Assembly (NCBI GenBank): GCA_021166815.1 | Contig: JAJPEO010000254.1 | Span: 1-21,359, forward strand | DNA length: 21,359 bases | Reading direction: 5' to 3' | DNA from: Nocardioides sp. | Lineage (GTDB): Bacteria > Actinomycetota > Actinomycetes > Propionibacteriales > Nocardioidaceae | Part shown: positions 867-20,961 of the stretch, in pieces | Layout: the number at the start of each line of letters is the position of its first letter | How positions within the stretch are numbered: the stretch's first letter is position 1 | Program-made: the position numbers and the translations under genes | The notes under the pieces: model-generated | The model's input: the letters and a program-made list of their open reading frames with translations, nothing else | What the model was told of the DNA's origin: nothing | The model's database searches: none

Positions 867-1280
867 TCAGTGCCCGCGTCTCCAGACGACGAGCGACTGC
901 GCCATCGCGCTGTGCAGCACCGGAAGGCGGTCGGAGGAGGACGCGGGCCGGCCCATCGCCTGGCGCAGCGCCTCCCGCGTGGCCTCGAGCTCGGCGATCA
1001 GCTCGGCGTTGCGGGCCTGCAGCGCGTCGACGCGCTGCTCGAGCTGCAGGATGCGGCGTACTCCCTCGATGCCGATCCCCGACGCGGTGAGGTCGGCGAT
1101 CTGGCGCAGCAGCTCCAGGTCGCGGTGGGAGTAGCGCCGTCCCCCACCACCGGTGCGGCCCGGGGTGATCAGGCCCATCCGCTCGTAGGCGCGCAGGGTC
1201 TGCGGGTGCAGCCCGGTGAGCTCGGCGGCGACGGAGATGACGTAGACGGCCGCGTCGGGGGGCGGGACGGCGAAGCTCAT
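867..1280 (-). CDS. hspR: HspR, MerR-family heat-shock repressor
   Basis: A 137-residue MerR-type regulator. Residues 13-50 form the winged helix-turn-helix (VAAELTGLHPQTLRAYERMG, then GGRRYSHRDL), followed by a helical part to about residue 75 and a coiled coil at about 76-110. HspR binds HAIR inverted repeats and represses the dnaK operon, with DnaK acting as co-repressor in Streptomyces; this is family knowledge. The position as last gene of dnaK-grpE-dnaJ-hspR and the HAIR site upstream of dnaK support the identity. The ATG overlaps the dnaJ stop codon by one base (TGATG), and a GAGGAGG ribosome-binding site lies inside the dnaJ end, so the two are translationally coupled. Confidence 0.96.
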   Translation of the reverse strand: MSFAVPPPDAAVYVISVAAELTGLHPQTLRAYERMGLITPGRTGGGGRRYSHRDLELLRQIADLTASGIGIEGVRRILQLEQRVDALQARNAELIAELEATREALRQAMGRPASSSDRLPVLHSAMAQSLVVWRRGH

Positions 1281-2470
1281 CACGCCTCCTCGAAGAGGTT
1301 GGCCCGCAACGGCTTGCCGGCCGTGGCAGCACGATAGGCCTCGAGCGCCTCGCGCGCGGTCGGGTCGAGGCTGGCGGGCACCGCCACCTCGATGGTGGCG
1401 AGCAGGTCGCCCCTGGTGCCGTCCTTGCGGGTGGCGCCCTTGCCGCGCACGCGGAAGGTGCGGCCGTTGGGGGTGCCGGCGGGGATCTTGAGGGTCACCG
1501 GGGCACCACCGAGCGTCGGGATCTTGACCTCGGCGCCGAGTGCCGCCTCGTCGAAGGAGACCGGAACGTCGATGGTGAGGTTGTCGCCCTTGCGGCCGAA
1601 CACGCGGTGGGGGCTGACCTTGACCGTGACGAACAGGTCCCCGGCCGGCCCGCCGCTCTCGCCGGGTGCGCCCTTGCCCTTGAGGCGGATCTTCTGTCCG
1701 TCCTTGACCCCGGCGGGGATGCGCGCCTGGATCGAGCGGGTGGAGGTGCCACGGCCACTGCCGTGGCAGGTCGGGCAGGCCTGGTCGTAGACCAGCTGCC
1801 GTCCGCGGCAGCGCGGGCAGGTCTCGTTCATCGAGAACGCACCGCCGACGCCGGCGACGACGTAGCCGGCGCCCTCGCACTCGGGGCAGATGTGGGGCTT
1901 GGTGCCCGGCTTGCCGCCGGTGCCCTGGCAGGTCGCGCACGCGGCGTCGGAGGACAGCCGCAGCGAGATCGTGACGCCGTCGAGGGCGTCGGTGAAGCCG
2001 ATGGTCGCCGTCGTCTCCACGTCGGCGCCGCGGCGTGCCCGCGGCTGGTGGGTACGCCGCCCGCCGCCACCGAACAGGTCGCCGAACATGTCGCCGAAGC
2101 CACCGCCGCCACTGCCGGAGCTGCGGAGCAGGTCGTCGAGGTTGAAGCCGCCCGCGCCGCCACCGCCGCCGAAGCCACCGGGGAAGCCCCCGCCCATGCC
2201 CGGGCCGAACCCACCGGACGCGGCGACCGAGCGGAACTCGTCGTACTTCTTGCGCTTCTCGGCGTCACCCACGACGTCGTAGGCCTCGGCGACCGCCTTG
2301 AAGCGCTCGTGCTTGGCGGCGTCGTCGGGGTGGGAGTCAGGGTGGTTGTCGCGCGCGAGCTTGCGGTAGGCCTTCTTGATGTCGGCCTGGCTCGCGTCCT
2401 TGGCCACGCCCAGGACCTTGTAGAAGTCCTTGGTCGCCCAGTCGTTGCGGAAGCCGGTCTCGTCAGCCAT
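1280..2470 (-). CDS. dnaJ: Chaperone DnaJ (Hsp40 co-chaperone)
   Basis: A 396-residue type I DnaJ. The J-domain spans about residues 14-80 with the HPD triad at 43-45, which stimulates DnaK ATPase. A Gly/Phe-rich linker runs from about 86 to 137. The zinc-binding region has four cysteine repeats at 178-185 (CATCQGTG), 195-202 (CPECEGAG), 218-225 (CPRCRGRQ) and 232-239 (CPTCHGSG). The C-terminal substrate-binding domains follow. The third repeat keeps both cysteines but lacks the usual final glycine. The start has a strong ribosome-binding site (AGGGAGG) 7 bases upstream. Unlike the other joints of the operon, it is separated from grpE by 93 bases holding a large hairpin. Linkage to hspR marks it as the operon copy, often called DnaJ1. 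Confidence 0.97.
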   Translation of the reverse strand: MADETGFRNDWATKDFYKVLGVAKDASQADIKKAYRKLARDNHPDSHPDDAAKHERFKAVAEAYDVVGDAEKRKKYDEFRSVAASGGFGPGMGGGFPGGFGGGGGAGGFNLDDLLRSSGSGGGGFGDMFGDLFGGGGRRTHQPRARRGADVETTATIGFTDALDGVTISLRLSSDAACATCQGTGGKPGTKPHICPECEGAGYVVAGVGGAFSMNETCPRCRGRQLVYDQACPTCHGSGRGTSTRSIQARIPAGVKDGQKIRLKGKGAPGESGGPAGDLFVTVKVSPHRVFGRKGDNLTIDVPVSFDEAALGAEVKIPTLGGAPVTLKIPAGTPNGRTFRVRGKGATRKDGTRGDLLATIEVAVPASLDPTAREALEAYRAATAGKPLRANLFEEA

Positions 2471-2511
2471 GCGTCAACCTCCCTTCGAGAATCTGGTGGG
2501 TGCTCCGCCTT

Positions 2512-2555
2512 GCGTCATGCGAACCCGCACCCATGGGTGCGGATCCGCATGACGC
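2512..2555 (-). repeat. 44-base near-perfect palindrome between grpE and dnaJ
   Basis: Two 22-base arms meet at 2533/2534. Twenty positions are Watson-Crick pairs. The other two (2522/2545 and 2524/2543) are A/C or C/A on the plus strand but become G-U wobbles in minus-strand RNA, so the grpE-dnaJ transcript can form an unbroken stem of about 20 pairs around a small loop. It starts 8 bases after the grpE stop. No U-tract follows, so it does not look like a classical terminator. It may be a partial terminator, an RNA processing or stability element, or a copy of a dispersed palindromic repeat. Confidence 0.75.
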
Positions 2556-2563
2556 GTACGGGG

Positions 2564-3189
2564 TCAGTCGTCTGCCGGGTCGACGACCAGCACCTGGGCG
2601 GCCCGGATCACCCGGTCGCCCAGCCGGTAGCCGGCCTTGGCGATGTGCTTGCACGTCGTGACCTGGACGTCCGGGTCGGTGCCCATGTGGCTCAGGGCGT
2701 CGTGCAGGTTGGGGTCGAACACGTCGCCCGGCTCGCCGAAGCGGACGAGGCCGGACTGCCCGACCGCGTTGGTGAGCTGGTCGGCGACCGCGTGGAACCC
2801 GGGGTCGTCCTCGCCCGCCTCCTTGGCCCGGTCGATCGTGTCGAGCACGTCGACGATCGGGGTCAGGGCCTTCCAGGTGGCGTTCTCGGCCACGACCTGA
2901 CGGTCGCGCTCGACGCGGCGCTTGTAGTTGAGGAACTCCGCCTGCAGCCGCTGCAGGTCGGAGGTGCGCTCCGCGAGCTGCTCCTCCAGCGACGGACCGG
3001 CCTCGACGTCGGCGACGTCGACCGGCTCGACGGGAGCGCCTTCCTCGACCATGTCGGAGACACCCGAGGTGTCCTCCGGGCCGGGCTCGTCGGCGGTCGG
3101 CGAGTGGTGGGGAGACCCCTGCTGGGCAGGGGCCTCCACCTCCGTCTCGTTGACCATCTGGGAGGCCTGGTCTCCGAAGGACTCATCGG

Positions 3190-3193
<4 letters not shown>
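2564..3193 (-). CDS. grpE: Nucleotide exchange factor GrpE
   Basis: A 209-residue GrpE. The first 65 residues are acidic and probably disordered. A long coiled coil follows ([20 protein letters not shown] onward), then the C-terminal beta domain with the GrpE signature ending in [21 protein letters not shown]. GrpE releases ADP from DnaK and also acts as a thermosensor in the family. The start is GTG at 3193, overlapping the dnaK stop by four bases (GTGA); the nearby ATG at 3186 is out of frame. This tight junction implies coupled DnaK and GrpE synthesis. Confidence 0.97.
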
Positions 3194-5043
<1,850 letters not shown>

Positions 5044-10519: not shown

Positions 10520-10588
10520 CCGGCAGTTAGTGTCACTGGCCGTCGCGAATTCGCGCCGGGAAGTGCCGCTAACTGCCGGTTGCATGGG
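10511..10588. repeat. 78-base imperfect palindrome at the SGNH hydrolase stop
   Basis: Two 39-base arms meet at 10549/10550, with the perfect core CGCGAATTCGCG. Of 39 positions, 33 are Watson-Crick pairs, two are T-G wobbles in plus-strand RNA (10517/10582 and 10531/10568), and four are mismatched (10533, 10538, 10539, 10543). The longest block is AACCGGCAGTTAG against CTAACTGCCGGTT. It covers the last nine bases of the hydrolase gene and ends 30 bases before the aldo/keto reductase start. It is either a terminator-like hairpin or a dispersed palindromic (REP-like) element. Confidence 0.8.
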
Positions 10589-10605
10589 CTTGGGGAGCAG
10601 CGCCC

Positions 10606-10611
10606 TACATT
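10606..10611 (+). promoter_or_regulatory. Probable -10 element of the aldo/keto reductase gene
   Basis: TACATT is followed by 7 bases and the ATG at 10619. This spacing suggests a leaderless mRNA. A G-run fills the spacer, but it is too close to the start to act as a normal Shine-Dalgarno site. Confidence 0.5.
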
Positions 10612-10618
10612 GGGGGGC

Positions 10619-11461
10619 ATGAGCGTCCCGCAGATCGCACTCCACGACGGCACGTCCATCCCGCAGCTGGGGCTGGGCACCTTCCAGGTCCCCGACGCGG
10701 AGGTCACCGACATCGTGGCCGAGGCGCTGGACATCGGCTACCGCCACGTCGACACCGCCCAGATGTACGGCAACGAGGCGGGCGTCGGCCGCGCGCTGGC
10801 GGCCTCCGGCATCGCCCGCGAGGACCTGTACGTCACCACCAAGCTCAACAACGACAACCACCGGCCCGACGACGTACGTCGCAGCCTCGTCGAGTCCCTC
10901 GAGCGGCTCGGGCTCGACCGCGTCGACCTCTTCCTCATCCACTGGCCGCTGCCCACGCGCTACGACGGCGACTTCGTGTCGACGTGGCGCGCGATGACCG
11001 AGGTGGCGGCCGAGGGGCTGACCACGTCGGTGGGCGTGTCCAACTTCCAGCCCGCCCACCTCGACCGCATCGTCGCCGAGACCGGCGTCGCGCCGGTGAT
11101 CAACCAGGTGGAGGTGCACCCGTTCTTCGCCAACGAGGACGTGCGCTCCGCCAACCGCCGGCACCGCGTCGTCACCGAGGCGTGGGCGCCGATCGCGCGC
11201 GGTGCCGTCGGCGACGACGAGCAGATCGGCGAGATCGCGTCACAGCTCGGGCGTACCCCCGCCCAGGTCGCGCTGCGCTGGCACATCCAGCGCGGGGACG
11301 TGGTCTTCCCGAAGACCACCCACTCCGAGCGGCTGCGGTCCAACTTCGACGTCCTGGACTTCGAGCTGTCGCCCGAGCAGATGAGCGTCGTCGACGGGCT
11401 CGACCGCGGCCCGGCCGGCCGGATGGGCCCGGACCCCGACGTCTTCGACTGGGTGCCCTGA
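10619..11461 (+). CDS. Aldo/keto reductase (AKR5-like)
   Basis: A 280-residue TIM-barrel oxidoreductase. The catalytic tetrad of the family is visible as Asp45 (GYRHVDTAQMY), Tyr50, Lys75 (VTTKL) and His108 (LFLIHWP). The C-terminal PKTTHSERLRSNFDVLDFELS segment is the NADPH-binding loop. It would reduce aldehydes or ketones with NADPH; the length and the N-terminal LGLGTFQV motif resemble 2,5-diketo-gluconate reductase types, but substrates of this family are poorly predicted by sequence. The ATG at 10619 is chosen because the family begins just before the first beta-hairpin. An upstream in-frame start (10580) would lie inside the palindrome and add 13 atypical residues. It converges with the M3 peptidase gene, 18 bases away. 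Confidence 0.94.
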   Translation: MSVPQIALHDGTSIPQLGLGTFQVPDAEVTDIVAEALDIGYRHVDTAQMYGNEAGVGRALAASGIAREDLYVTTKLNNDNHRPDDVRRSLVESLERLGLDRVDLFLIHWPLPTRYDGDFVSTWRAMTEVAAEGLTTSVGVSNFQPAHLDRIVAETGVAPVINQVEVHPFFANEDVRSANRRHRVVTEAWAPIARGAVGDDEQIGEIASQLGRTPAQVALRWHIQRGDVVFPKTTHSERLRSNFDVLDFELSPEQMSVVDGLDRGPAGRMGPDPDVFDWVP

Positions 11462-13457: not shown

Positions 13458-14660
13458 GTGACCCCGCCAGCCGACACCGAGTTCCGGCTGCGCGACATCT
13501 GGTGGGTGGCGTACGGCCCCTCGGTCGTCAGCTCCGTCGGGCACGGCGCCGTGATGCCGGTGCTCGCGCTGCGCGCCCGCGACCTGGGCGCGGACGTGGC
13601 GACCGCGGCGGCGGTCGTGGCGGTGCTGAGCCTCGGCATGCTCGCGGCGAGCCTGCCGGCCGGGGCACTGGTGGCGCGGATCGGCGAGCGCACCGCCCTG
13701 CTCGCCGTCGGCGCGGTGGACGCGGTGGCCATGTCGTTCGCGGCCCTCACCGACTCGGTGCTGGGCCTGAGCGCGGCGGTGTTCCTGAGCGGGATGTCGT
13801 GGACGGTCTTCCTCATCGCCCGGCAGGGCTTCCTCATCGACGCGGTGCCCGAGCACTACCGCGCCCGGGCGATGTCGATGCTCGGCGGGACCTACCGCAT
13901 CGGCGTGCTCGTCGGGCCGTTGCTGGGCGCCGGGCTGCTCACGGTGTTCGGCCTGCCGAGCGTCTTCTGGCTGGCCGGGGCGATGTCGGTGGTCTCGGCG
14001 GTGATGGCGCGGATGATGCCCGACTTCGGCAAGGAGTCGCGCGACGAGGCCCGCGCCACCGGGCACCTGTCGGTGTGGGCGGTGATCCGCGAGCACCGCC
14101 GCACCCTCGCGACCCTCGGCGTCGCGGTCGTCATCCTGGGCGCCAGCCGGTCGCTGCGGGCCAGCCTGCTGCCGCTGTGGGCGGAGAACATCGGCATCTC
14201 GGCCTCGACGACGTCGCTGATCTTCGCCGTCGCGGCAGCCGTCGACGTCGCCTTCATGTGGCCGGGAGGGTGGCTGATGGACACCCGCGGCCGAGCCGTC
14301 GTCGCGGTGCCGGTCGTGCTGTCCATGGCGGTGGCCTGCCTGCTCCTGCCCCTGGCCACCACGGCGGTCGGCGTCACCTTGGTCATGCTGCTCATCGCCG
14401 TGGGCAACGGCCTCGGTTCCGGCATCGTGATGACCACCGGCGCCGACGTCGCACCCGCCGTCGGGCGCGCCCAGTTCCTCGGCGCGTGGCGCCTGTGCGG
14501 CGACATCGGCAACAGCGGCGGCCCGCTGATGGTCAGCGCCGTCGCGGCGGTAGCGCCGCTCGCGACGGCCAGCCTGGTCGTGGGCGGGCTGGCCCTGCTC
14601 GGCACGGGGTGGGTCGGCTACTGGACCCGGCGGCTCGGCCTCAGCCGACGGTCACCCTGA
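13458..14660 (+). CDS. Major facilitator superfamily transporter
   Basis: A 400-residue integral membrane protein with about 12 hydrophobic segments and a central cytoplasmic loop at about residues 190-215 (FGKESRDEARATG). The loop after the second segment (VARIGERTALL) matches the MFS motif A region loosely, and GGTYRIGVLVGPLLGAGLL resembles the antiporter-like motif C of drug efflux carriers. It probably exports or imports a small molecule by proton coupling; the substrate is unknown. The start is a GTG placed by a -10 hexamer 7 bases upstream and by the first membrane segment. Its last 20 bases overlap, tail to tail, the gene on the other strand. Confidence 0.9.
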   Translation: MTPPADTEFRLRDIWWVAYGPSVVSSVGHGAVMPVLALRARDLGADVATAAAVVAVLSLGMLAASLPAGALVARIGERTALLAVGAVDAVAMSFAALTDSVLGLSAAVFLSGMSWTVFLIARQGFLIDAVPEHYRARAMSMLGGTYRIGVLVGPLLGAGLLTVFGLPSVFWLAGAMSVVSAVMARMMPDFGKESRDEARATGHLSVWAVIREHRRTLATLGVAVVILGASRSLRASLLPLWAENIGISASTTSLIFAVAAAVDVAFMWPGGWLMDTRGRAVVAVPVVLSMAVACLLLPLATTAVGVTLVMLLIAVGNGLGSGIVMTTGADVAPAVGRAQFLGAWRLCGDIGNSGGPLMVSAVAAVAPLATASLVVGGLALLGTGWVGYWTRRLGLSRRSP

Positions 14661-15174
14661 CCGGGTTGGACGCCACCTTGCTGTCGGTGTCGATCACGCG
14701 GAAGCGGTTGACGCCGAGTCGGCCGGTCATGACGTACGTCGAGAACGTCTGCCCGCTGACCGACATGGTCACGGGGAAGTCGGCCCAACCGCCACCCTCG
14801 AAGCGCTGCACCTGCAGGACCGAGCCCTCCCCGGTCGGATAGGTGCCGGTGAGGTCGATCTGCTGCATCGGGGCCACGGACGACTGGCCGACGGTCAGGT
14901 TGATGCCCTTCTGCGGCGCCTCCGACTCCGACGGCTCGTTGGACGGCTCCTGCTCCTGGGGCTGCTGCTGGGCGGTCTCGCTCTCGGTCTCGGTCGGCTC
15001 GGGGATGTACATCGCCGCCTCGCCGCTGCTGCCCGAACCGCCGCCGCCCTCGCCGATGCCGGCGACCTTGACACCGAACGCCGCGAACAGGCCACCGAGC
15101 ACGCCGAAGACCACGGCCACGGTCGCGAGGGCGACGAGGCCGGCGAGCACGGGGCGCTTCTCGGTGTCGATCAC
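14641..15174 (-). CDS. Membrane-anchored surface protein with C-terminal Ig-like domain
   Basis: A 177-residue protein with a short cytoplasmic N-terminus, one membrane helix at about 9-34, a Gly/Ser stretch, then a Glu/Pro/Gln-rich spacer (about 57-90). A compact beta-rich domain follows (91-177), with strands such as QQIDLTGTYP and NRFRVIDTDSKVASNPVRVTV that suggest an Ig-like or fibronectin-like fold. It would sit outside the membrane on a flexible stalk. No enzyme motif is seen. The GTG at 15174 fits the start of the helix. GACAAT lies 6 bases upstream, so the transcript may be leaderless. The gene end overlaps the MFS gene by 20 bases. Confidence 0.8.
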   Translation of the reverse strand: MIDTEKRPVLAGLVALATVAVVFGVLGGLFAAFGVKVAGIGEGGGGSGSSGEAAMYIPEPTETESETAQQQPQEQEPSNEPSESEAPQKGINLTVGQSSVAPMQQIDLTGTYPTGEGSVLQVQRFEGGGWADFPVTMSVSGQTFSTYVMTGRLGVNRFRVIDTDSKVASNPVRVTVG

Positions 15175-15216: not shown

Positions 15217-15687
15217 TCACCGGCGCTCGCAGATCACGACCGGGATGACCCGGTCGGTCCACGACTGGTAGGAGTCGAAGTCGGCGTAGACGTCGACCAG
15301 CCGGGGCCACAGCCGCTCGCGCTCCTCCGGCGTCGCAGTGCGGGTGTGGACGTCGATGACCTCGCGCCCGATCTGCAGCCGGGTGTCGGGGTGGGCCTGG
15401 AGGTTGCGGTACCACTGCGGGGTGCGGTCCATCCCGCCCGAGCTCGCGACGACGACCACGTCGTCACCGTCACGCAGGTGCAGCAGCGGCGTGGTGTACG
15501 TCGTGCCACTGGATCGACCGACGTGGTCCAGCAGCAGCACGGGCACGGGCTTGCTCCACCCGGCGCCGACGCGCCACTTGCCGCCGATGCGGCCACCGGT
15601 GGCGCGGTAGAGCGCGACGTGTGCCCGCCCGCCGTGCTTGAGCACCCCGCGGACCCAGGGAGCGTAGAGGTTGGGCGGCTTCTCCAT
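15217..15687 (-). CDS. Ddn-family F420-dependent nitroreductase-like oxidoreductase
   Basis: A 156-residue protein of the deazaflavin-dependent nitroreductase (Ddn) family, a split beta-barrel flavin/deazaflavin reductase fold. Visible family features are LLLDHVGRSSGTTYTTPL (51-68), the strand VVVVASSGGMDRTPQWYRNL (77-96) and the C-terminal YQSWTDRVIPVVICER (139-154). Ddn enzymes use F420H2 to reduce quinones or unsaturated ketones; the native substrate here is unknown. The ATG has an AGAGGA ribosome-binding site. It follows the SnoaL-like gene by 12 bases, so both are read from the promoter at 16135-16140 and share its KstR-like operator. With the LLM enzyme opposite, the cluster has two probable F420 enzymes. 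Confidence 0.92.
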   Translation of the reverse strand: MEKPPNLYAPWVRGVLKHGGRAHVALYRATGGRIGGKWRVGAGWSKPVPVLLLDHVGRSSGTTYTTPLLHLRDGDDVVVVASSGGMDRTPQWYRNLQAHPDTRLQIGREVIDVHTRTATPEERERLWPRLVDVYADFDSYQSWTDRVIPVVICERR

Positions 15688-15699
15688 CGCGAGGTCCTC

Positions 15700-16128
15700 T
15701 CAGCGGGTCCAGACGAGCTCGTCGACCATGTGGCGCGAGCGCCAGCCGTCGGCGGTGCGGACGAGCTCGTGGTGGTAGTAGCCGCCGACCTCGATGACGG
15801 TCTCGGTGCCGTCGGGGTTGGTGGCGACCATCGGGTTGGTGAGGTACGCGGTGGCGCGGGCCGTGTCGCCGTCGAGGGTGATGTCGACCTGGCCGATGAG
15901 GTGCTGCCAGCGGGCGAACGCCGACTTCATCTCGCGGACCCAGGCGAGGGTGACCGCGGGCGTGTCGACCGGCCCACCGGCGGAGGAGTAGTCGAGCGTG
16001 GCGTCGTCGGTGAAGACCTGCGAGGGGTCGTACTGCCCGCTGTCGAGGGCGTCGCTGTCGACCAGGCGGGTGTACCGCGTGATGACCGCGCGGATCTCCT
16101 CGCGGTCGGCGAGTTCGGGAAGCTCCAT
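15700..16128 (-). CDS. SnoaL-like / NTF2-fold protein
   Basis: A 142-residue protein with the NTF2-like pattern: an N-terminal helix (REEIRAVITRYTRLVDS), a loop with DPSQVFTDDATLDYS, then curved strands ending in GGYYHHELVRTADGWRSRHMVDELVWTR. Such SnoaL-like proteins are small dehydratases, isomerases or ketosteroid-isomerase-like enzymes, or non-catalytic binding proteins. The fold holds a hydrophobic pocket, which would suit a steroid or polyketide substrate; that is inference. The start is set by a -10 hexamer 6 bases before the ATG. It is the first gene of the minus-strand pair, divergent from the LLM oxidoreductase, with a KstR-like operator between them. Confidence 0.88.
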   Translation of the reverse strand: MELPELADREEIRAVITRYTRLVDSDALDSGQYDPSQVFTDDATLDYSSAGGPVDTPAVTLAWVREMKSAFARWQHLIGQVDITLDGDTARATAYLTNPMVATNPDGTETVIEVGGYYHHELVRTADGWRSRHMVDELVWTR

Positions 16129-16134
16129 GGACCC

Positions 16135-16140
16135 ACACTA
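16135..16140 (-). promoter_or_regulatory. Probable -10 element of the SnoaL/Ddn operon
   Basis: Minus-strand TAGTGT lies 6 bases before the ATG at 16128. Its first TA is the end of the operator palindrome. A loose -35 (TGGACG) lies 18 bases upstream. A leaderless mRNA is predicted. Confidence 0.55.
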
Positions 16141-16152
16141 GAACTCGTTCTA
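16139..16152. promoter_or_regulatory. KstR-like operator in the divergent promoter
   Basis: TAGAACTCGTTCTA has perfect 6-base arms and fits the KstR consensus TnnAACnnGTTnnA. The wider sequence 16135-16156 is also symmetric except for one position pair (16138/16153). It touches both divergent -10 elements, so one bound TetR-family dimer could silence both operons. KstR controls cholesterol catabolism in mycobacteria and rhodococci. No kstR gene is in the window, so the regulator is inferred. Confidence 0.75.
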
Positions 16153-16156
16153 ATGT
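16151..16156 (+). promoter_or_regulatory. Probable -10 element of the LLM oxidoreductase operon
   Basis: TAATGT lies 7 bases before the ATG at 16164, and its first TA closes the operator palindrome. A weak -35 (TGGACC, 16128-16133) lies 17 bases upstream. A leaderless mRNA is predicted. Confidence 0.55.
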
Positions 16157-16163
16157 TGCGTCC

Positions 16164-17036
16164 ATGAGGTTCACCTACGCCGAGGCCATGACCCGCGCCG
16201 AGCTCTACGCGCCGCTGGCCCAGGCCGCCGAGGCGGCCGGCTACACCACGATGACGGTCGCGGACTCGCTGATCTACCCCGAGGTGTCGGACTCGACCTA
16301 TCCCTACACCGACACGGGCGACCGGGAGTTCCTGGAGGACAAGGAGTTCATCGAGACGATGGTGCTCGTCACGCACCTCGCGGCGGTGACGACGACCCTG
16401 CGCTTCTCGCCCTTCGTCCTCAAGCTCCCCGTGCGCCCGCCCGTGCTCGTCGCCAAGCAGGCGTCGTCGATCGCGTTCCTCTCGGGCGGCCGGCTCACCC
16501 TCGGCGTGGGCCTGTCCCCGTGGCCGGAGGACTTCGCGGCGATGGGCGTGCCGTGGGAGCGCCGCGGCCGGCGTACCGACGAGTGCATCGACATCATGCG
16601 CGGGCTGTGGAGCGGCGACTTCTTCTCCTACTCCGGGGAGTTCTTCCAGATCGAGTCGATGAAGCAGACCCCGGCGCCGCCCTCCCCCATCCCGCTGCTG
16701 GTCGGCGGGCACTCCGACGCGGCGCTGCGTCGGGCGGTGCTCAAGGGCGACGGCTGGATGCACGCCGGCGGCGACGGCGAGGAGCTCGACCGCCTGCTCG
16801 CCCGCCTCGCGGAGATCCGGCGCGCCGAGGGCGACACGCGCGAGGACTTCCAGGTCCACGTCATCAGCTACGACGCCTACACCCCCGACGGCATCAAGCG
16901 CCTCGAGGACAAGGGCGTCACCGACTGCATCGTCGGCTTCCGCGTGCCCTACGTGATGGGCCAGGACGACGAGCCCCTGGCGGACAAGGTGCGACACCTG
17001 GAGTCGTACGCCGAGTCCGTGATCGCGAAGGTGTGA
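16164..17036 (+). CDS. LLM-class F420-dependent oxidoreductase
   Basis: A 290-residue luciferase-like monooxygenase-fold protein. It shows the N-terminal barrel strand (MRFTYAEAM), the conserved RPPVLVAKQASSIAFLSGGRLTLGVG block (about 91-116) and the PLLVGGHSDAALRRAVLKGDGWM block (about 178-200), typical of F420-binding members. It probably transfers hydride between F420 and a carbon substrate such as an alcohol, ketone or enone. The ATG is fixed by the -10 hexamer 7 bases upstream. It is the first gene after the KstR-like operator and is followed by an overlapping DUF1214-like gene. In M. tuberculosis an LLM gene (Rv3520c) belongs to the KstR regulon; that parallel is from memory. Confidence 0.93.
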   Translation: MRFTYAEAMTRAELYAPLAQAAEAAGYTTMTVADSLIYPEVSDSTYPYTDTGDREFLEDKEFIETMVLVTHLAAVTTTLRFSPFVLKLPVRPPVLVAKQASSIAFLSGGRLTLGVGLSPWPEDFAAMGVPWERRGRRTDECIDIMRGLWSGDFFSYSGEFFQIESMKQTPAPPSPIPLLVGGHSDAALRRAVLKGDGWMHAGGDGEELDRLLARLAEIRRAEGDTREDFQVHVISYDAYTPDGIKRLEDKGVTDCIVGFRVPYVMGQDDEPLADKVRHLESYAESVIAKV

Positions 17037-18187
17037 GCGGGGTGTCGCTCGACGCGTTCCGCGAGGCCATCGCCGAGGCGGAGGGGCTGATCCGCAAACC
17101 GCCCTTCGAGGTGACCCCGGCCGAGCTGGCCGAGGGCCTCGACTACCTCGCCGGGTCGATCCGGTCCTCACTGCAGATGGCCTTCGACTACGACCTCGAC
17201 CACCCGGTGCTGGTCAACCCCACGCACCAGTACGCCCGGCAGGGCCTGGACAACCCCGACGCCATCTACTTCAACGCCCACCTCACCGAGGGCGCGTCGT
17301 ACGTCGTGTCGGGCCGGCGCGGCACCACCACCGACCTGTCCTTCCAGGTCATGGACGGCACCTACTCCGACACCGGCGCGCCGCAGTCCGTGGTCGCGTT
17401 CGACGACCGCGACCTCGAGGTCGGCCCCGACGGCTTCTTCGAGTGGCGCTTCGGCCCGGAGCTGGGGCTGCGGAAGGGGGCCACGCTCATCGTGCGCGAG
17501 GTGTACGACGACTGGGTCACCGAGGAGCGCGGCACCCTGCGCATCCAGCGCCTCGACACCGCCGGCATCCCCCGCGCCGCCGTCACCGAGGCGAGCGTGG
17601 AGAAGCGCTACGGCGTCGCCGCCACGATGCTCGTCGGCCGGATCAGGACGTGGTTCGCCTTCCCCGAGTGGTTCACCTACAAGGAGCCGGTCAACACGCT
17701 CACCGCACCCGCCTCGACGCCCGGCGGCCTGGCCTCGCAGTTCTCCTCCATCGGCCACTACTCCCTCACCCCGGACGAGGCGATGGTCGTGACGGTCCCC
17801 GCCTGCGCCGACGCTCCGTACCAGGCGATCCAGGTCGGGTCGAAGTGGTACGTCTCCACCGACTACGAGCACCACCAGACCTCGCTGACGCGCGCCCAGT
17901 CGCACCTCGACGCCGACGGGATGCTGCGCTACGTGGTCAGCGAGCGCGACCCCGGTGTGGCCAACTGGCTGGAGACCACCGGGCACGCCCAGGGCGTGAT
18001 GATGCTGCGCTGGCAGCGGGTCGCCAGGCCGCTCGGGCACGCCGACGGCCCCACGGTCGAGGTGGTGCCCTTCGACGAGCTGCGCTCGCGCGTGCCGGAG
18101 CTCGACGCCCAGGCGATCGGCCCCCTCGAGTGGCGGCGGCGGATCGAGGCGCGGCAGGTCGGCGTGGCGCGGCGCATGATCTCGTGA
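17033..18187 (+). CDS. DUF1214-like protein
   Basis: A 384-residue protein. The C-terminal third has a pattern like DUF1214: an SIGHYSLTPDEAMVV strand, QAIQVGSKWYVSTDY, DGMLRYVVSERDPGVANWLETTG and a final MMLRWQRVARP. The central part contains YVVSGRRGTTTDLSFQVMDGTY. No catalytic function is established for this family. The start is taken as GTG at 17033, overlapping the LLM stop (GTGA) as at other joints of this window; a GTG at 17042 is also possible and fits an upstream AAGG better. It is co-transcribed with the LLM oxidoreductase. Its size and neighbours recall Rv3531c, which lies next to SDR and sulfotransferase-like genes in M. tuberculosis; this is remembered, not compared. Confidence 0.85.
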   Translation: MSGVSLDAFREAIAEAEGLIRKPPFEVTPAELAEGLDYLAGSIRSSLQMAFDYDLDHPVLVNPTHQYARQGLDNPDAIYFNAHLTEGASYVVSGRRGTTTDLSFQVMDGTYSDTGAPQSVVAFDDRDLEVGPDGFFEWRFGPELGLRKGATLIVREVYDDWVTEERGTLRIQRLDTAGIPRAAVTEASVEKRYGVAATMLVGRIRTWFAFPEWFTYKEPVNTLTAPASTPGGLASQFSSIGHYSLTPDEAMVVTVPACADAPYQAIQVGSKWYVSTDYEHHQTSLTRAQSHLDADGMLRYVVSERDPGVANWLETTGHAQGVMMLRWQRVARPLGHADGPTVEVVPFDELRSRVPELDAQAIGPLEWRRRIEARQVGVARRMIS

Positions 18188-18224
18188 GCCCCGGCGCCGG
18201 GTGACGCCTGCAAGGATGAGGGGC

Positions 18225-19004
18225 ATGAACGTCCGCCTGAGCACGAACAAGGCCGCACTCGGAGGCCTGGCCACGACGGCGATCGGCGCCCTGGCCACCG
18301 CTCCGGGGAAGGTCACCCACGTCCTGCGCAAGCGCTACCCCACCGTAGCGGTCACCGGCATGACCGGCGTCGGGAAGTCCCGCCTGGCCGACCGCCTCGC
18401 GCGTCGCGCCGCCGCGAGCGACGACACGGCCGTCGGCTCGGCCGTGATGGAGCGGCGTACGCGCAGGACCTCGCGGATGCGCGGCTTCCGCTTCCGGGTC
18501 GTCCCGGGCGACAACGCCGCGACGCGCCTGGGCGCGCTCGACGAGGTCTTCCACGACGAGCCCGTCGACGGCGTCCTCCACGTGGTCGCCTGGGGTCATG
18601 CGACGCCGCGGCGCGCGGCCGGCACGACCGGGGCCGCTACGGCCAGCCGGGAGGCGCTGCTCGCCGCCGAGCTCGAGGACTGGACGATCACCGCCCACCG
18701 CATCGCGTCGCTGGCCGTGCGCCGCGACCAGCCGATCTGGTTGGTCATCGCGGTGACGAAGGCCGACCTCTACCCCGACCGGGTCGACGAGGCGGTGGCG
18801 TACTACTCCCCCGGCAGCGGCACGCCCTTCGGCGACAAGGTCGACGAGCTCCGCGCGCTGGCCGGAGGGGCGAAGCTCTCGATCGACGTGCTCCCCGTCT
18901 GCTCCCAGGGCGGCGACAAGCGCTCGCCCATGCCGACGAAGGCCTGCACGGCCCTCCTCGACAAGCTCGCCACCCGGCTGGAGCAGCTCAGCGGCCACGT
19001 CTGA
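18225..19004 (+). CDS. P-loop GTPase-like protein
   Basis: A 259-residue protein. A hydrophobic N-terminal stretch (about 10-27) precedes a P-loop GMTGVGKS at 45-52. A TKAD at 178-181 matches the guanine-specificity motif NKxD. The usual DxxG switch II motif is not seen; RVVPGD at 91-96 stands where it would be. It is therefore probably a small GTPase-like NTPase of unknown role, possibly membrane-associated. The ATG at 18225 is preferred because AAGGA lies 8 bases upstream; ATG 18216 and GTG 18201 are also in frame. The gene sits between the DUF1214-like gene and the SDR gene, with 37 and 39 bases on either side, and may not be functionally tied to them. Confidence 0.82.
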   Translation: MNVRLSTNKAALGGLATTAIGALATAPGKVTHVLRKRYPTVAVTGMTGVGKSRLADRLARRAAASDDTAVGSAVMERRTRRTSRMRGFRFRVVPGDNAATRLGALDEVFHDEPVDGVLHVVAWGHATPRRAAGTTGAATASREALLAAELEDWTITAHRIASLAVRRDQPIWLVIAVTKADLYPDRVDEAVAYYSPGSGTPFGDKVDELRALAGGAKLSIDVLPVCSQGGDKRSPMPTKACTALLDKLATRLEQLSGHV

Positions 19005-19019
19005 GGGTGGCCAGGTTCA

Positions 19020-19033
19020 TAGAACACGTTCTA
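19020..19033 (+). promoter_or_regulatory. KstR-like operator upstream of the SDR gene
   Basis: TAGAACACGTTCTA has perfect 6-base arms and fits TnnAACnnGTTnnA. It differs from the site at 16139-16152 at one central base only. It overlaps the first two bases of the -10 element, as the other site does. The whole intergenic gap is 39 bases, so operator and promoter fill it. Confidence 0.78.
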
Positions 19034-19037
19034 GTGT
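19032..19037 (+). promoter_or_regulatory. Probable -10 element of the SDR/sulfotransferase operon
   Basis: TAGTGT lies 6 bases before the ATG at 19044 with no Shine-Dalgarno sequence, predicting a leaderless mRNA. A weak -35 (TGGCCA) lies 18 bases upstream. Confidence 0.55.
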
Positions 19038-19043
19038 GACCCC

Positions 19044-19829
19044 ATGACGCTTCTCCAGGACAAGGTCGTCGTGCTCTCCGGGGTCGGGCCCGGGCTGGGG
19101 CGCGCCCTCGGCGAGGAGGCCGCGCGCATGGGCGCCCACCTCGTGCTCGTCTCCCGCACCGAGCGGCGCCTGGAGAAGATGGCCGACGTCGTACGCGGCC
19201 TCGGGCGACGCGCGCTGGTCGTGCCCACCGACATCACCGACGAGGCCGCGCGCCAGCGCCTCGTCGAGGCGGCGCTGGCCGAGTTCGGCCGGGTCGACGT
19301 GCTCGTCAACAACGCCTTCGGCATCCCCCCGATGGACCCGCTCACCTCCCTCGACGTCGACGCGCTGCGTGTCGCCAACGAGACCAACGTCTTCGCACCG
19401 CTGCGGCTGAGCGCGCTGTTCGCCGACGCGCTGGCGGCGGCCAAGGGCGCGATCGTCAACGTCAACTCGTGCGTGCTCTACCAGTCGCAGCCGGAGTTCG
19501 CCGGCTACAAGCTCAGCAAGGGCGCGCTCGCCCACCTCGCCAGCAGCCTCGCGACCGAGCTCGGGCCGCGCGGCATCCGCGTCAACTCGGTCGCGCCGTC
19601 CTACATCTACGAGGACGTCAACAAGGCCTACTTCGACTGGATCGCCGCCGAGACCGGCCGCACCCACGAGGAGGTCTACGCCGAGAAGGCCGAGCCGACC
19701 GACCTCAAGCGCCTGGCCACGCCCGACGAGGTGGCGCGCGCGGCGCTCTTCCTCGCCAGCGACCTGGCCAGCGCGGTGACCGGCCAGATCCTCAACGTCG
19801 ACTGCGGTGAGTTCCATGCTGGGGCGTGA
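19044..19829 (+). CDS. Short-chain dehydrogenase/reductase (SDR)
   Basis: A 261-residue classical SDR. The cofactor motif GxxxGxG is GVGPGLG at 13-19, with SRTERR (37-42) after strand 2 suggesting possible NADP preference. The NNAG motif appears as VNNAFG (88-93). The catalytic residues are Ser142 and Tyr155 with Lys159 (YKLSK). The C-terminal ATPDEVARAALFLASDLASAVTGQ and the following NVDCG strand are typical. It should oxidise or reduce a hydroxyl or keto group, here plausibly on a steroid or acyl intermediate given the KstR-like operator. The promoter and operator lie directly upstream. Its end overlaps the sulfotransferase-like gene. By size and neighbour it resembles Rv3530c, from memory. 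Confidence 0.94.
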   Translation: MTLLQDKVVVLSGVGPGLGRALGEEAARMGAHLVLVSRTERRLEKMADVVRGLGRRALVVPTDITDEAARQRLVEAALAEFGRVDVLVNNAFGIPPMDPLTSLDVDALRVANETNVFAPLRLSALFADALAAAKGAIVNVNSCVLYQSQPEFAGYKLSKGALAHLASSLATELGPRGIRVNSVAPSYIYEDVNKAYFDWIAAETGRTHEEVYAEKAEPTDLKRLATPDEVARAALFLASDLASAVTGQILNVDCGEFHAGA

Positions 19830-20961
19830 GCGGGCCGACGTCGGGTCGTACGACGACATCGTCGCGGCGGCCGTGCGCACCACGGGCCTCGACGACTTCG
19901 GCGGCAGCGAGCACGAGGAGGGGTTGCGCCTCCTCGTCGACGACCTCGGCTCGAGTGCGGCCGGACTGACCGGAGTGGGCAACCACCGCAAGCGGGCCGA
20001 CGTCAAGGGCGTGCTGGTCGCGCGCCTCATGGCCGAGCAGGGCTTCAAGGACCACCCTGCCCACGCCGACGTGCCGATCGAGGCACCGGTCTTCGTGACC
20101 GGGCTGCCGCGCTCGGGGACCACGCTCGTGCAGCGCCTGCTCACCGCCGACCCCCACGCGCAGGGCCTGGAGCAGTGGCTGGCCGACCTGCCGCAGCCGC
20201 GCCCGCCCCGCGAGACCTGGGACGACCACCCGATCTTCAGCGCGATGCAGGCGGGCTACCAGGCCTTCCACGAGGCCAACCCCGAGCTCGCCGGCATCCA
20301 CTACTCCGACGCCTCGACCCACGAGGAGTGCTGGCGGTTGCTCCAGCAGGCCGGGACGTCGGTGGCGTGGGAGACCCAGGCCCACGTGCCGCGCTACTCC
20401 GCGTGGCTGCAGCAGGCCGACTGGGTGCCGGCCTACCGCCGCCACCGCCGCCTGCTCCAGCTCATCGGCCTCCACGACGCCGACAAGCGGTGGGTGCTCA
20501 AGAACCCCAGCCACCTCGTCGCGATCGACGCCCTGCTCGAGGTCTACCCCGACGCCCGGATCGTCGTGACCCACCGCGACCCGGTCGAGTGCGTGGCCTC
20601 GATGTGCTCGCTGGCGGAGGCCTCGACGCGCGGGCAGTCGACGACGTTCGTGGGCGAGACCATCGGCCGCACCCAGCTCGACCTGCTGGCCCGCGAGCAG
20701 GCGGCGTACCTCCGCAGCCGCGAACGCGCCGGCGAGGACCGCTTCGTCGACGTCTCCTACACCGACCTCGTCGCCGACCCGATCGGCACGATCGCCGCGG
20801 TGCACGAGGCCTTCGGCCTGCCGTGGGACGCGACGGCCGCCGACGCCGTCCGGCGCGAGCACGACCTCACGCGGCAGGGTCCGCGGGCCCCCCGGCACGC
20901 CTACGACCTGGCCGACTTCGGCCTCACCGAGGCCGAGGTGCGGGACCGCCTGACCGCCTGA
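19816..20961 (+). CDS. Sulfotransferase-fold protein
   Basis: A 381-residue member of the sulfotransferase family. The 5'-phosphosulfate-binding loop is TGLPRSGTTLVQ at 95-106 and the 3'-phosphate-binding region is HRDPVECVASMCSL at 253-266. KNPSHL at 229-234 is a further family motif. The family transfers sulfate from PAPS to hydroxyls, but this actinobacterial branch has not, to my knowledge, been shown to do so, and might use another chemistry. The start is taken at ATG 19816 behind GGTGAG; a GTG at 19807 is also in frame. Either way it overlaps the SDR gene, so the two are coupled. The SDR-sulfotransferase pair matches the order I recall for Rv3530c-Rv3529c. Confidence 0.92.
   Translation: MLGRERADVGSYDDIVAAAVRTTGLDDFGGSEHEEGLRLLVDDLGSSAAGLTGVGNHRKRADVKGVLVARLMAEQGFKDHPAHADVPIEAPVFVTGLPRSGTTLVQRLLTADPHAQGLEQWLADLPQPRPPRETWDDHPIFSAMQAGYQAFHEANPELAGIHYSDASTHEECWRLLQQAGTSVAWETQAHVPRYSAWLQQADWVPAYRRHRRLLQLIGLHDADKRWVLKNPSHLVAIDALLEVYPDARIVVTHRDPVECVASMCSLAEASTRGQSTTFVGETIGRTQLDLLAREQAAYLRSRERAGEDRFVDVSYTDLVADPIGTIAAVHEAFGLPWDATAADAVRREHDLTRQGPRAPRHAYDLADFGLTEAEVRDRLTA

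Follow-up and report, generated by a model that had tools for sequence, protein, structure and literature searches.

A 21,359-nucleotide stretch of DNA from Nocardioides sp. (assembly GCA_021166815.1, contig JAJPEO010000254.1; the window, meaning this whole stretch) contains two 14-bp palindromes that are very probably operators of KstR, a TetR-family repressor encoded on another contig (C336) of the same genome; in this reading KstR would act by occluding the promoters, and the second operator would have arisen where an operon was split. Operator 1, TAGAACTCGTTCTA, lies at 16139-16152 between divergent genes for a SnoaL_4 protein (minus strand) and an F420-dependent oxidoreductase of the luciferase-like monooxygenase (LLM) class (plus strand), and operator 2, TAGAACACGTTCTA, lies at 19020-19033 between a P-loop gene and a short-chain dehydrogenase/reductase (SDR) gene. 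Both have perfect arms and match the pattern TNNAACNNGTTNNA exactly; a single base in the spacer distinguishes them. They are the only two matches to this pattern in the window, and none of 100 dinucleotide shuffles gave a match. Operator 1 ends 11 bp before the LLM start (16164) and 10 bp before the SnoaL start (16128, minus strand), operator 2 ends 10 bp before the SDR start (19044), and both overlap predicted -10 boxes. The mark of a KstR regulon, the palindrome TNNAACNNGTTNNA at a promoter, was thus found at both window sites. A preliminary description made from the sequence alone had proposed two KstR-like palindromes with perfect arms fitting this motif, each at a promoter, and both proposals were borne out. 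The features are as follows.

15217..15687, minus strand: F420H2-dependent quinone reductase family gene (Ddn-like; F420H2_quin_red, PF04075), Pfam 1.9e-39, TIGR00026 above cut-off
15700..16128, minus strand: SnoaL_4 gene, Pfam 7.7e-29, homologue in 83 of 84 loci with the LLM gene
16135..16140, minus strand: SnoaL promoter, predicted -10 box TAGTGT; overlaps operator 1 at its SnoaL-side end
16139..16152, no strand: KstR-type operator 1, TAGAACTCGTTCTA, exact TNNAACNNGTTNNA, separating SnoaL from the divergently oriented LLM gene
16151..16156, plus strand: LLM promoter, predicted -10 box TAATGT, from the conserved TA[GC]T[GC]T of 63 aligned loci; operator 1 ends in the first TA of this box
16164..17036, plus strand: F420-dependent LLM-class oxidoreductase (Bac_luciferase, TIGR03619), NCBIfam 202.2 bits versus a cut-off of 166.9
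17033..18187, plus strand: DUF1214-like protein, 384 amino acids, start at 17033, or at 17042 by a second gene caller
18225..19004, plus strand: P-loop NTPase/GTPase-like gene, AAA_16 22.3 bits, below cut-off; interrupts the DUF1214-SDR operon
19020..19033, no strand: KstR-type operator 2, TAGAACACGTTCTA, exact TNNAACNNGTTNNA, before the SDR-sulfotransferase genes
19032..19037, plus strand: SDR promoter, predicted -10 box TAGTGT; overlaps operator 2
19044..19829, plus strand: SDR (NF005909 family), NCBIfam 367.8 bits versus a cut-off of 258
19807..20961, plus strand: Stf1-type sulfotransferase (Sulfotransfer_3), by Pfam

The regulator itself was found in the window's assembly (2.83 Mb in 400 contigs, 89.7% complete) at C336:15480-16097, as a PF17925 protein (88 bits) whose best PDB matches were the chains of Mycobacterium tuberculosis KstR (176 bits, compared to 92.5 bits for the next distinct TetR chain) and whose N-terminal DNA-binding stretch has 47 of 60 residues the same as those of M. 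tuberculosis KstR. A one-mismatch site, TGAAACGCGTTCCT, lies 117 bp before kstR (L017:15349). Exact motif sites numbered 22 in the genome, compared to 5 for a reversed control pattern; five of the 22 were intragenic and 17 lay outside predicted genes. Two sites were located between the genes for HsaA (604.5 bits, cut-off 450) and the 3-oxosteroid 1-dehydrogenase KstD (882.3 bits, cut-off 788), with HsaD- and HsaC-type genes, judged by their Pfam domains, following HsaA. Others were found at the genes for a KshA_C protein (PF19298), a P450/steroid 3-ketoacyl-CoA thiolase (FadA5) pair (626.2 bits, cut-off 515), FadD8 (965.3 bits, cut-off 875), and a TIGR03559 (Rv3520c) LLM protein accompanied by a ChsH2-domain gene and a lipid-transfer gene; at a double acyl-CoA dehydrogenase gene that we named FadE34-like; and at GMC, FAD-binding, SDR, thioesterase, SnoaL_2, and wax-ester synthase/lipase genes. 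Two of the 17, on contigs C71 and C157, had atypical arms, and their neighbours were left unannotated. Two of the checks that the preliminary description had suggested, a search for a kstR homologue and a genome-wide scan for the motif near steroid genes, were both positive.

The site in front of the LLM gene was strongly conserved among relatives. In 84 deduplicated LLM loci, the window included, the operator before this gene was exact in 78, and 63 of those 78 operators stood 10 to 12 bp from the start codon; of the remaining six loci, five had a one-mismatch operator and one was truncated. Among 120 genomes of the family, the LLM gene was detected in 38 (E 1e-60), the sulfotransferase in 32, and KstR in 50 (E 1e-40). 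All 38 genomes with the LLM gene had KstR, and none of the 70 genomes without KstR had the LLM gene (Fisher p 4.5e-21). The median motif count was 39.5 (control 8.5) in genomes with both genes, compared to 11.5 (control 7) in the 70 KstR-negative genomes. Across the class, 33 of 296 sampled genomes carried the LLM gene, 24 of them outside the family, and loci were available for 21 of these 24; the operator was exact in 17 of these 21 loci and had one mismatch in 2.

Alignment of the 63 loci with the 10- to 12-bp spacing yielded an invariant T-A at the operator end followed by G/C, T (98%), mostly G/C, and T (100%), with a TGGCA element approximately 17 bp upstream and a start codon (60 ATG, 3 GTG) located 6 to 8 nt past the -10 box. 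In the window, the same -10 pattern and spacing hold for the LLM, SnoaL, and SDR genes, with -35 elements that are weak by eye. This layout suggests promoters of the SigA type whose -35 and -10 elements flank the operator, and, because the start codon lies only 6 to 8 nt past the predicted -10 box, the transcripts of all three genes are probably leaderless. On the SnoaL side, the distance from operator to start in relatives was mostly 21 to 23 bp, compared to 10 bp in the window, so the symmetric layout seen here is not general. The same -10 overlap was present at only some of the 17 non-intragenic sites of the genome. Partial overlap of the mycobacterial motif with the -10 region of kstR was noted earlier (Kendall 2007, PMC1995591; for this and the other papers cited, statements refer to those parts of the source that were available).

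A KstR dimer would bind each palindrome and is expected to repress by occlusion: the operator sits in the interval from -35 to -10, and the TA at its end doubles as the start of the -10 box TA[GC]T[GC]T. Operator 1 would then shut two divergent promoters, that of SnoaL(-Ddn) leftward and that of LLM-DUF1214 rightward, and operator 2 would shut SDR-sulfotransferase. Release of KstR by a sterol acid, or by the CoA derivative of one, would induce these units along with the core sterol genes; 3-oxocholest-4-en-26-oic acid and its derivatives are described as releasing KstR (PMC7807495). The preliminary description had treated the six genes as one co-regulated steroid or lipid pathway segment. Motif enrichment, the presence of KstR, and conservation support their membership in a regulon, but not as a single unit, since orientation and spacing point to at least three transcription units: SnoaL-Ddn, LLM-DUF1214, and SDR-sulfotransferase.

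The origin of operator 2 was addressed by comparing 121 loci, the window included, of which 26 were dropped and 95 retained. Those dropped were 11 duplicates, identical over the 300 bases compared, 12 loci whose DUF1214-SDR gap could not be measured, two Dietzia loci (L145 and L149) with rearranged gene order and no operator, and L173, which has a truncated LLM gene, a narrow gap, and no operator. A second operator before the SDR gene was found in 29 of the 30 loci with a DUF1214-SDR gap of at least 160 bp and in none of the 65 with a smaller gap, the threshold having been set with the gaps in view. In four of the operator-bearing loci the spacer is just 169 to 298 bp. The best site before the SDR gene in the 65 narrow loci had one mismatch in 2, two in 4, and three or more in 59, and 25 of these loci share a spacer of 59 to 65 bp. 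One further locus, L134, agrees with this pattern and was not counted; it has the SDR and sulfotransferase genes with the operator, and the DUF1214 gene was not found in that stretch.

All tree statements rest on a quick tree, on which the second operator requires 8 changes of state. Independent contrasts of operator versus gap agreed in 7 of 8 cases, with none opposed and one tie (p 0.0156), and an origin in a single clade was rejected (approximately unbiased test, p-AU 4.7e-10). The tree includes 20 outgroup loci (from Actinomadura, Nocardia, Prauserella, and other taxa), which have the DUF1214, SDR, and sulfotransferase genes contiguous and no exact operator before the SDR gene; in the Nocardioidaceae loci, the LLM gene stands in front of DUF1214-SDR-sulfotransferase. 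Among 24 deduplicated DUF1214 loci without the LLM gene, 18 had an exact operator within 400 bp in front. Repeated gain of the second operator is the simplest reading of these patterns. Most likely, an LLM-DUF1214-SDR-sulfotransferase operon was broken, in the window by the P-loop gene, and operator 2 exists because the cut-off half gained a KstR site of its own. If so, these loci are a natural case in which broken operons repeatedly came to carry a new repressor site. Insertion of one common gene as the cause of the splits was rejected for the five split loci that were read, which seem to hold differing genes (PhoX-like, aldo-keto reductases in two loci, alpha/beta hydrolase, and GH25-like, named from translations). 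An aldo-keto reductase gene in the window (10580-11461), approximately 5 kb away, looks by eye like the inserts of L114 and L115.

Several observations weigh against control by KstR and against the split-operon origin. The LLM gene is absent from 12 of the 50 family genomes with KstR, and the median motif count of these 12 is 12.5 (control 5), which is near background; two of the 21 LLM loci outside the family (L229 and L233) have no site within one mismatch. The strict consensus TAGAACNNGTTCTA, with two mismatches allowed, gave 39 matches in the window's genome versus 76 for its control; weak sites therefore cannot be called, and no regulon members were added from this pattern, which was treated as noise. 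In the gap comparison, the 160-bp threshold was chosen after the gaps had been seen (the widest narrow gap is 149 bp, and the narrowest wide gap with an operator is 169 bp), L104 has a wide gap (216 bp) and no second operator, and two narrow-gap Amycolatopsis loci (L198 and L210) have a one-mismatch site before the SDR gene. In Nocardioides simplex, phytosterol induced only 27 of 71 predicted KstR operons (PMC7807495). Finally, a KstR paralogue encoded on contig C69 (L035:677-1267) could share the sites. This protein exceeds the PF17925 cut-off and is nearest to 3BJB (152.6 bits, versus 71.5 for KstR); contig C69 itself (10.9 kb) contains no exact motif site.

The existence of this second PF17925 protein, with 3BJB and not KstR as its nearest structure, gives some weight to the idea that the operators are real and are chiefly bound by the paralogue or another TetR protein for a non-steroid lipid response, as does the argument that KstR itself serves diverse lipids (Kendall 2007, PMC1995591). 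We regard this as quite improbable, given that the same motif stands at HsaA, KstD, KshA, and FadA5/P450, that the DNA-binding stretch of KstR is so close to that of M. tuberculosis KstR, and that the LLM gene is missing from all 70 KstR-negative genomes among the 120 family genomes. That the motif matches are chance palindromes has a negligible probability: the five intragenic matches do equal the total of the reversed control, but no shuffle of the window reproduced the matches, and the conservation of the site in 78 of 84 loci, at a 10- to 12-bp distance from the start in 63 of the 78, refutes a chance origin of operator 1. Somewhat less remote, and still unlikely, is that the second operator is ancestral and was lost repeatedly when the two halves fused. 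The count of 8 changes is the same wherever the root is placed and, taken alone, does not separate gain from loss; the second operator is present on some early Nocardioidaceae branches (L130 and the three-locus clade of the window); and six narrow-gap loci have a site with one or two mismatches before the SDR gene. Against such losses, all 20 outgroup loci are contiguous without an exact SDR operator, as are the early Nocardioidaceae loci L053, L137, and L131/L132; 59 of the 65 narrow loci have three or more mismatches at their best site and 25 share nearly the same short spacer; and the inserted genes differ among the five loci read. Repeated gain of a KstR operator at split operons remains the preferred reading.

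The window sulfotransferase is kin in fold and sequence to Stf1 (PDB 2ZQ5) and carries PRSGTT, which we take to be the motif of the loop that binds 3'-phosphoadenosine 5'-phosphosulfate (PAPS); R102, G104, T105, and T106 are present in at least 97% of 128 sequences, and S103 is not so conserved. For Stf1, which PMC8882603 calls Rv3529c, an effect on host signalling is cited in that paper. PAPS is the donor of mycobacterial sulfotransferases, and CysQ is a phosphatase of 3'-phosphoadenosine 5'-phosphate (PMC3141025). Outside the window's group, genes for CysD and CysNC, in some cases with CysQ, were found at most 6 kb from the DUF1214 gene in 15 of 44 loci, which are neither random nor independent, L240 being a duplicate of L203 and several others close kin. 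The 15 comprise loci from Nocardia, Amycolatopsis, Prauserella, Kibdelosporangium, a Tsukamurella plasmid (annotated in RefSeq), and Dietzia, together with L135 and four more loci, and 10 of them have an exact operator before the DUF1214 gene. In L194, L197, and L145, Pfam searches identified APS kinase, CysD-type, and inositol-phosphatase-type domains, CysQ being our own name for the last. No CysD gene was nearby in any of the 84 LLM-bearing loci, the window included, which span only a few kb.

These gene neighbourhoods are circumstantial evidence that a KstR-controlled enzyme of the Stf1 type really sulfates something. Tentatively, and with less than an even chance of being right, we propose a KstR-run sulfation branch in which DUF1214-SDR-Stf1 would place sulfate from PAPS on a sterol-derived or lipid alcohol that the SDR makes or exposes, and in which the LLM, SnoaL, and Ddn enzymes would act earlier. 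The link to PAPS genes turns what had been labelled only "sulfotransferase-like" into a testable hypothesis of sulfation in sterol catabolism. In L145, L149 (both Dietzia), and L135 (a second copy in one Nocardioides relative), a CysQ-type gene precedes the DUF1214-sulfotransferase genes, and L145 and L135 also have CysD and CysNC. These three loci carry a different TetR gene, and their best upstream KstR-like site is two mismatches off; a change of regulator is possible there.

As an operon, the DUF1214-SDR-sulfotransferase trio is widespread, in most cases carrying a KstR-type site, and is not new as such. It is presumably the gene-order match of Rv3531c-Rv3530c-Rv3529c, which the similarity to Stf1 also fits. 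We further take Rv3570c to be hsaA, Rv0551c to be fadD8, and Rv0940c and Rv0953c to be LLM proteins, without equating the window LLM protein with either. KstR regulons are likewise already known from mycobacteria and have been predicted in N. simplex; the new parts are the site-by-site evidence, the pattern of operators at the split, and the link to sulfation. The mycobacterial regulon (PMC1995591; see also Kendall 2010, PMC3068626) shares with ours the same 14-bp palindrome, its partial overlap with the -10 region, and the repressor family. Its site list (PMC1995591) shares fadA5, fadD8, fadE34, Rv3520c, Rv3531c, and the double site Rv3570c/Rv3571, which the HsaA/KstD double site of our genome resembles, and KstR gel shifts were positive at the sites of Rv3531c, Rv0940c, Rv0953c, Rv3520c, and Rv0551c (Kendall 2007, PMC1995591). 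The Nocardioides genome differs from the mycobacterial ones in several respects: the assembly is fragmented, with the sites scattered across numerous contigs; genes for LLM, SnoaL, and Ddn proteins precede or adjoin the Rv3531c-type trio; in the window this trio is split and has a second operator; and kstR lies approximately 4 kb from the fadE34-like gene, whereas in mycobacteria kstR is divergent from fadE34.

Two loci of Pimelobacter simplex, which we take to be the same species as N. simplex, carry the cluster with both operators (L163 and L184). The KstR regulon predicted for N. simplex VKM Ac-2033D (PMC7807495, PMC7593942) belongs to an organism of the same family and has a motif called very similar to the mycobacterial one; the text consulted does not name the cluster, which may be listed in the supplementary tables. 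Neither recurrent gain of a KstR operator nor PAPS genes beside this operon was found in the open-access literature listed, which is weak evidence of absence. The analysis places conserved enzymes without an assigned role, including Nocardioides kin of Rv3529c-Rv3531c, firmly in a sterol regulon of a genus that includes culturable, non-pathogenic species, in which their roles are open to experiment.

Pfam and NCBIfam domain searches upheld the earlier gene calls of SnoaL-like, Ddn, LLM, SDR, and sulfotransferase-like. The LLM protein passed the curated cut-off of TIGR03619, and a member of the F420 ligase family is present in the window's genome. The Ddn-like gene (15217..15687, minus strand) lies downstream of the SnoaL gene and has a homologue in 53 of the 84 LLM loci. 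The 384-amino-acid protein had no Pfam or NCBIfam match at E 0.001; the earlier label "DUF1214-like" appears reasonable, since its structure model resembles DUF1214-type folds and several plasmid homologues are annotated as DUF1214. We take VPA0735 to be a DUF1254/DUF1214 protein; 6ANS, an uncharacterised protein of Burkholderia cenocepacia for which no function is stated, is named among the closest known systems. The P-loop gene (18225-19004), missing from the preliminary description, lies between the DUF1214-like gene and operator 2, and its translation carries GMTGVGKS and TKAD motifs; tblastn across the 121 loci at E 1e-5 gave no match other than the window, and a PDB search gave nothing better than E 0.19.

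A PDB search with the SnoaL protein returned three uncharacterised proteins and nothing else under E 0.001. In N. simplex, KR76_16145, called a baiE orthologue, belongs to the KstR regulon and is induced by cholesterol and lithocholate (PMC7593942). This suggests a BaiE-type 7-alpha-dehydratase as a possible role of the window's SnoaL protein, to which KR76_16145 could not be matched. Another SnoaL_4-type gene is located upstream of the DUF1214-like gene in L193, L194, L196-L201, L203, L208-L211, L213, L215, L240, and L242, at a distance of approximately 0.5 to 0.7 kb, or 1.5 kb in L200 and L242. The association with SnoaL may thus be older than the Nocardioides arrangement. A hypothetical 177-amino-acid protein (14641-15174) without a Pfam or NCBIfam match at E 0.001 has an N-terminal hydrophobic stretch, and its homologues adjoin the SnoaL/Ddn genes in many Nocardioidaceae loci. 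At 867-5043 on the minus strand, the window also carries an ordinary DnaK-GrpE-DnaJ-MerR (HspR-like) heat-shock operon, named from translations.

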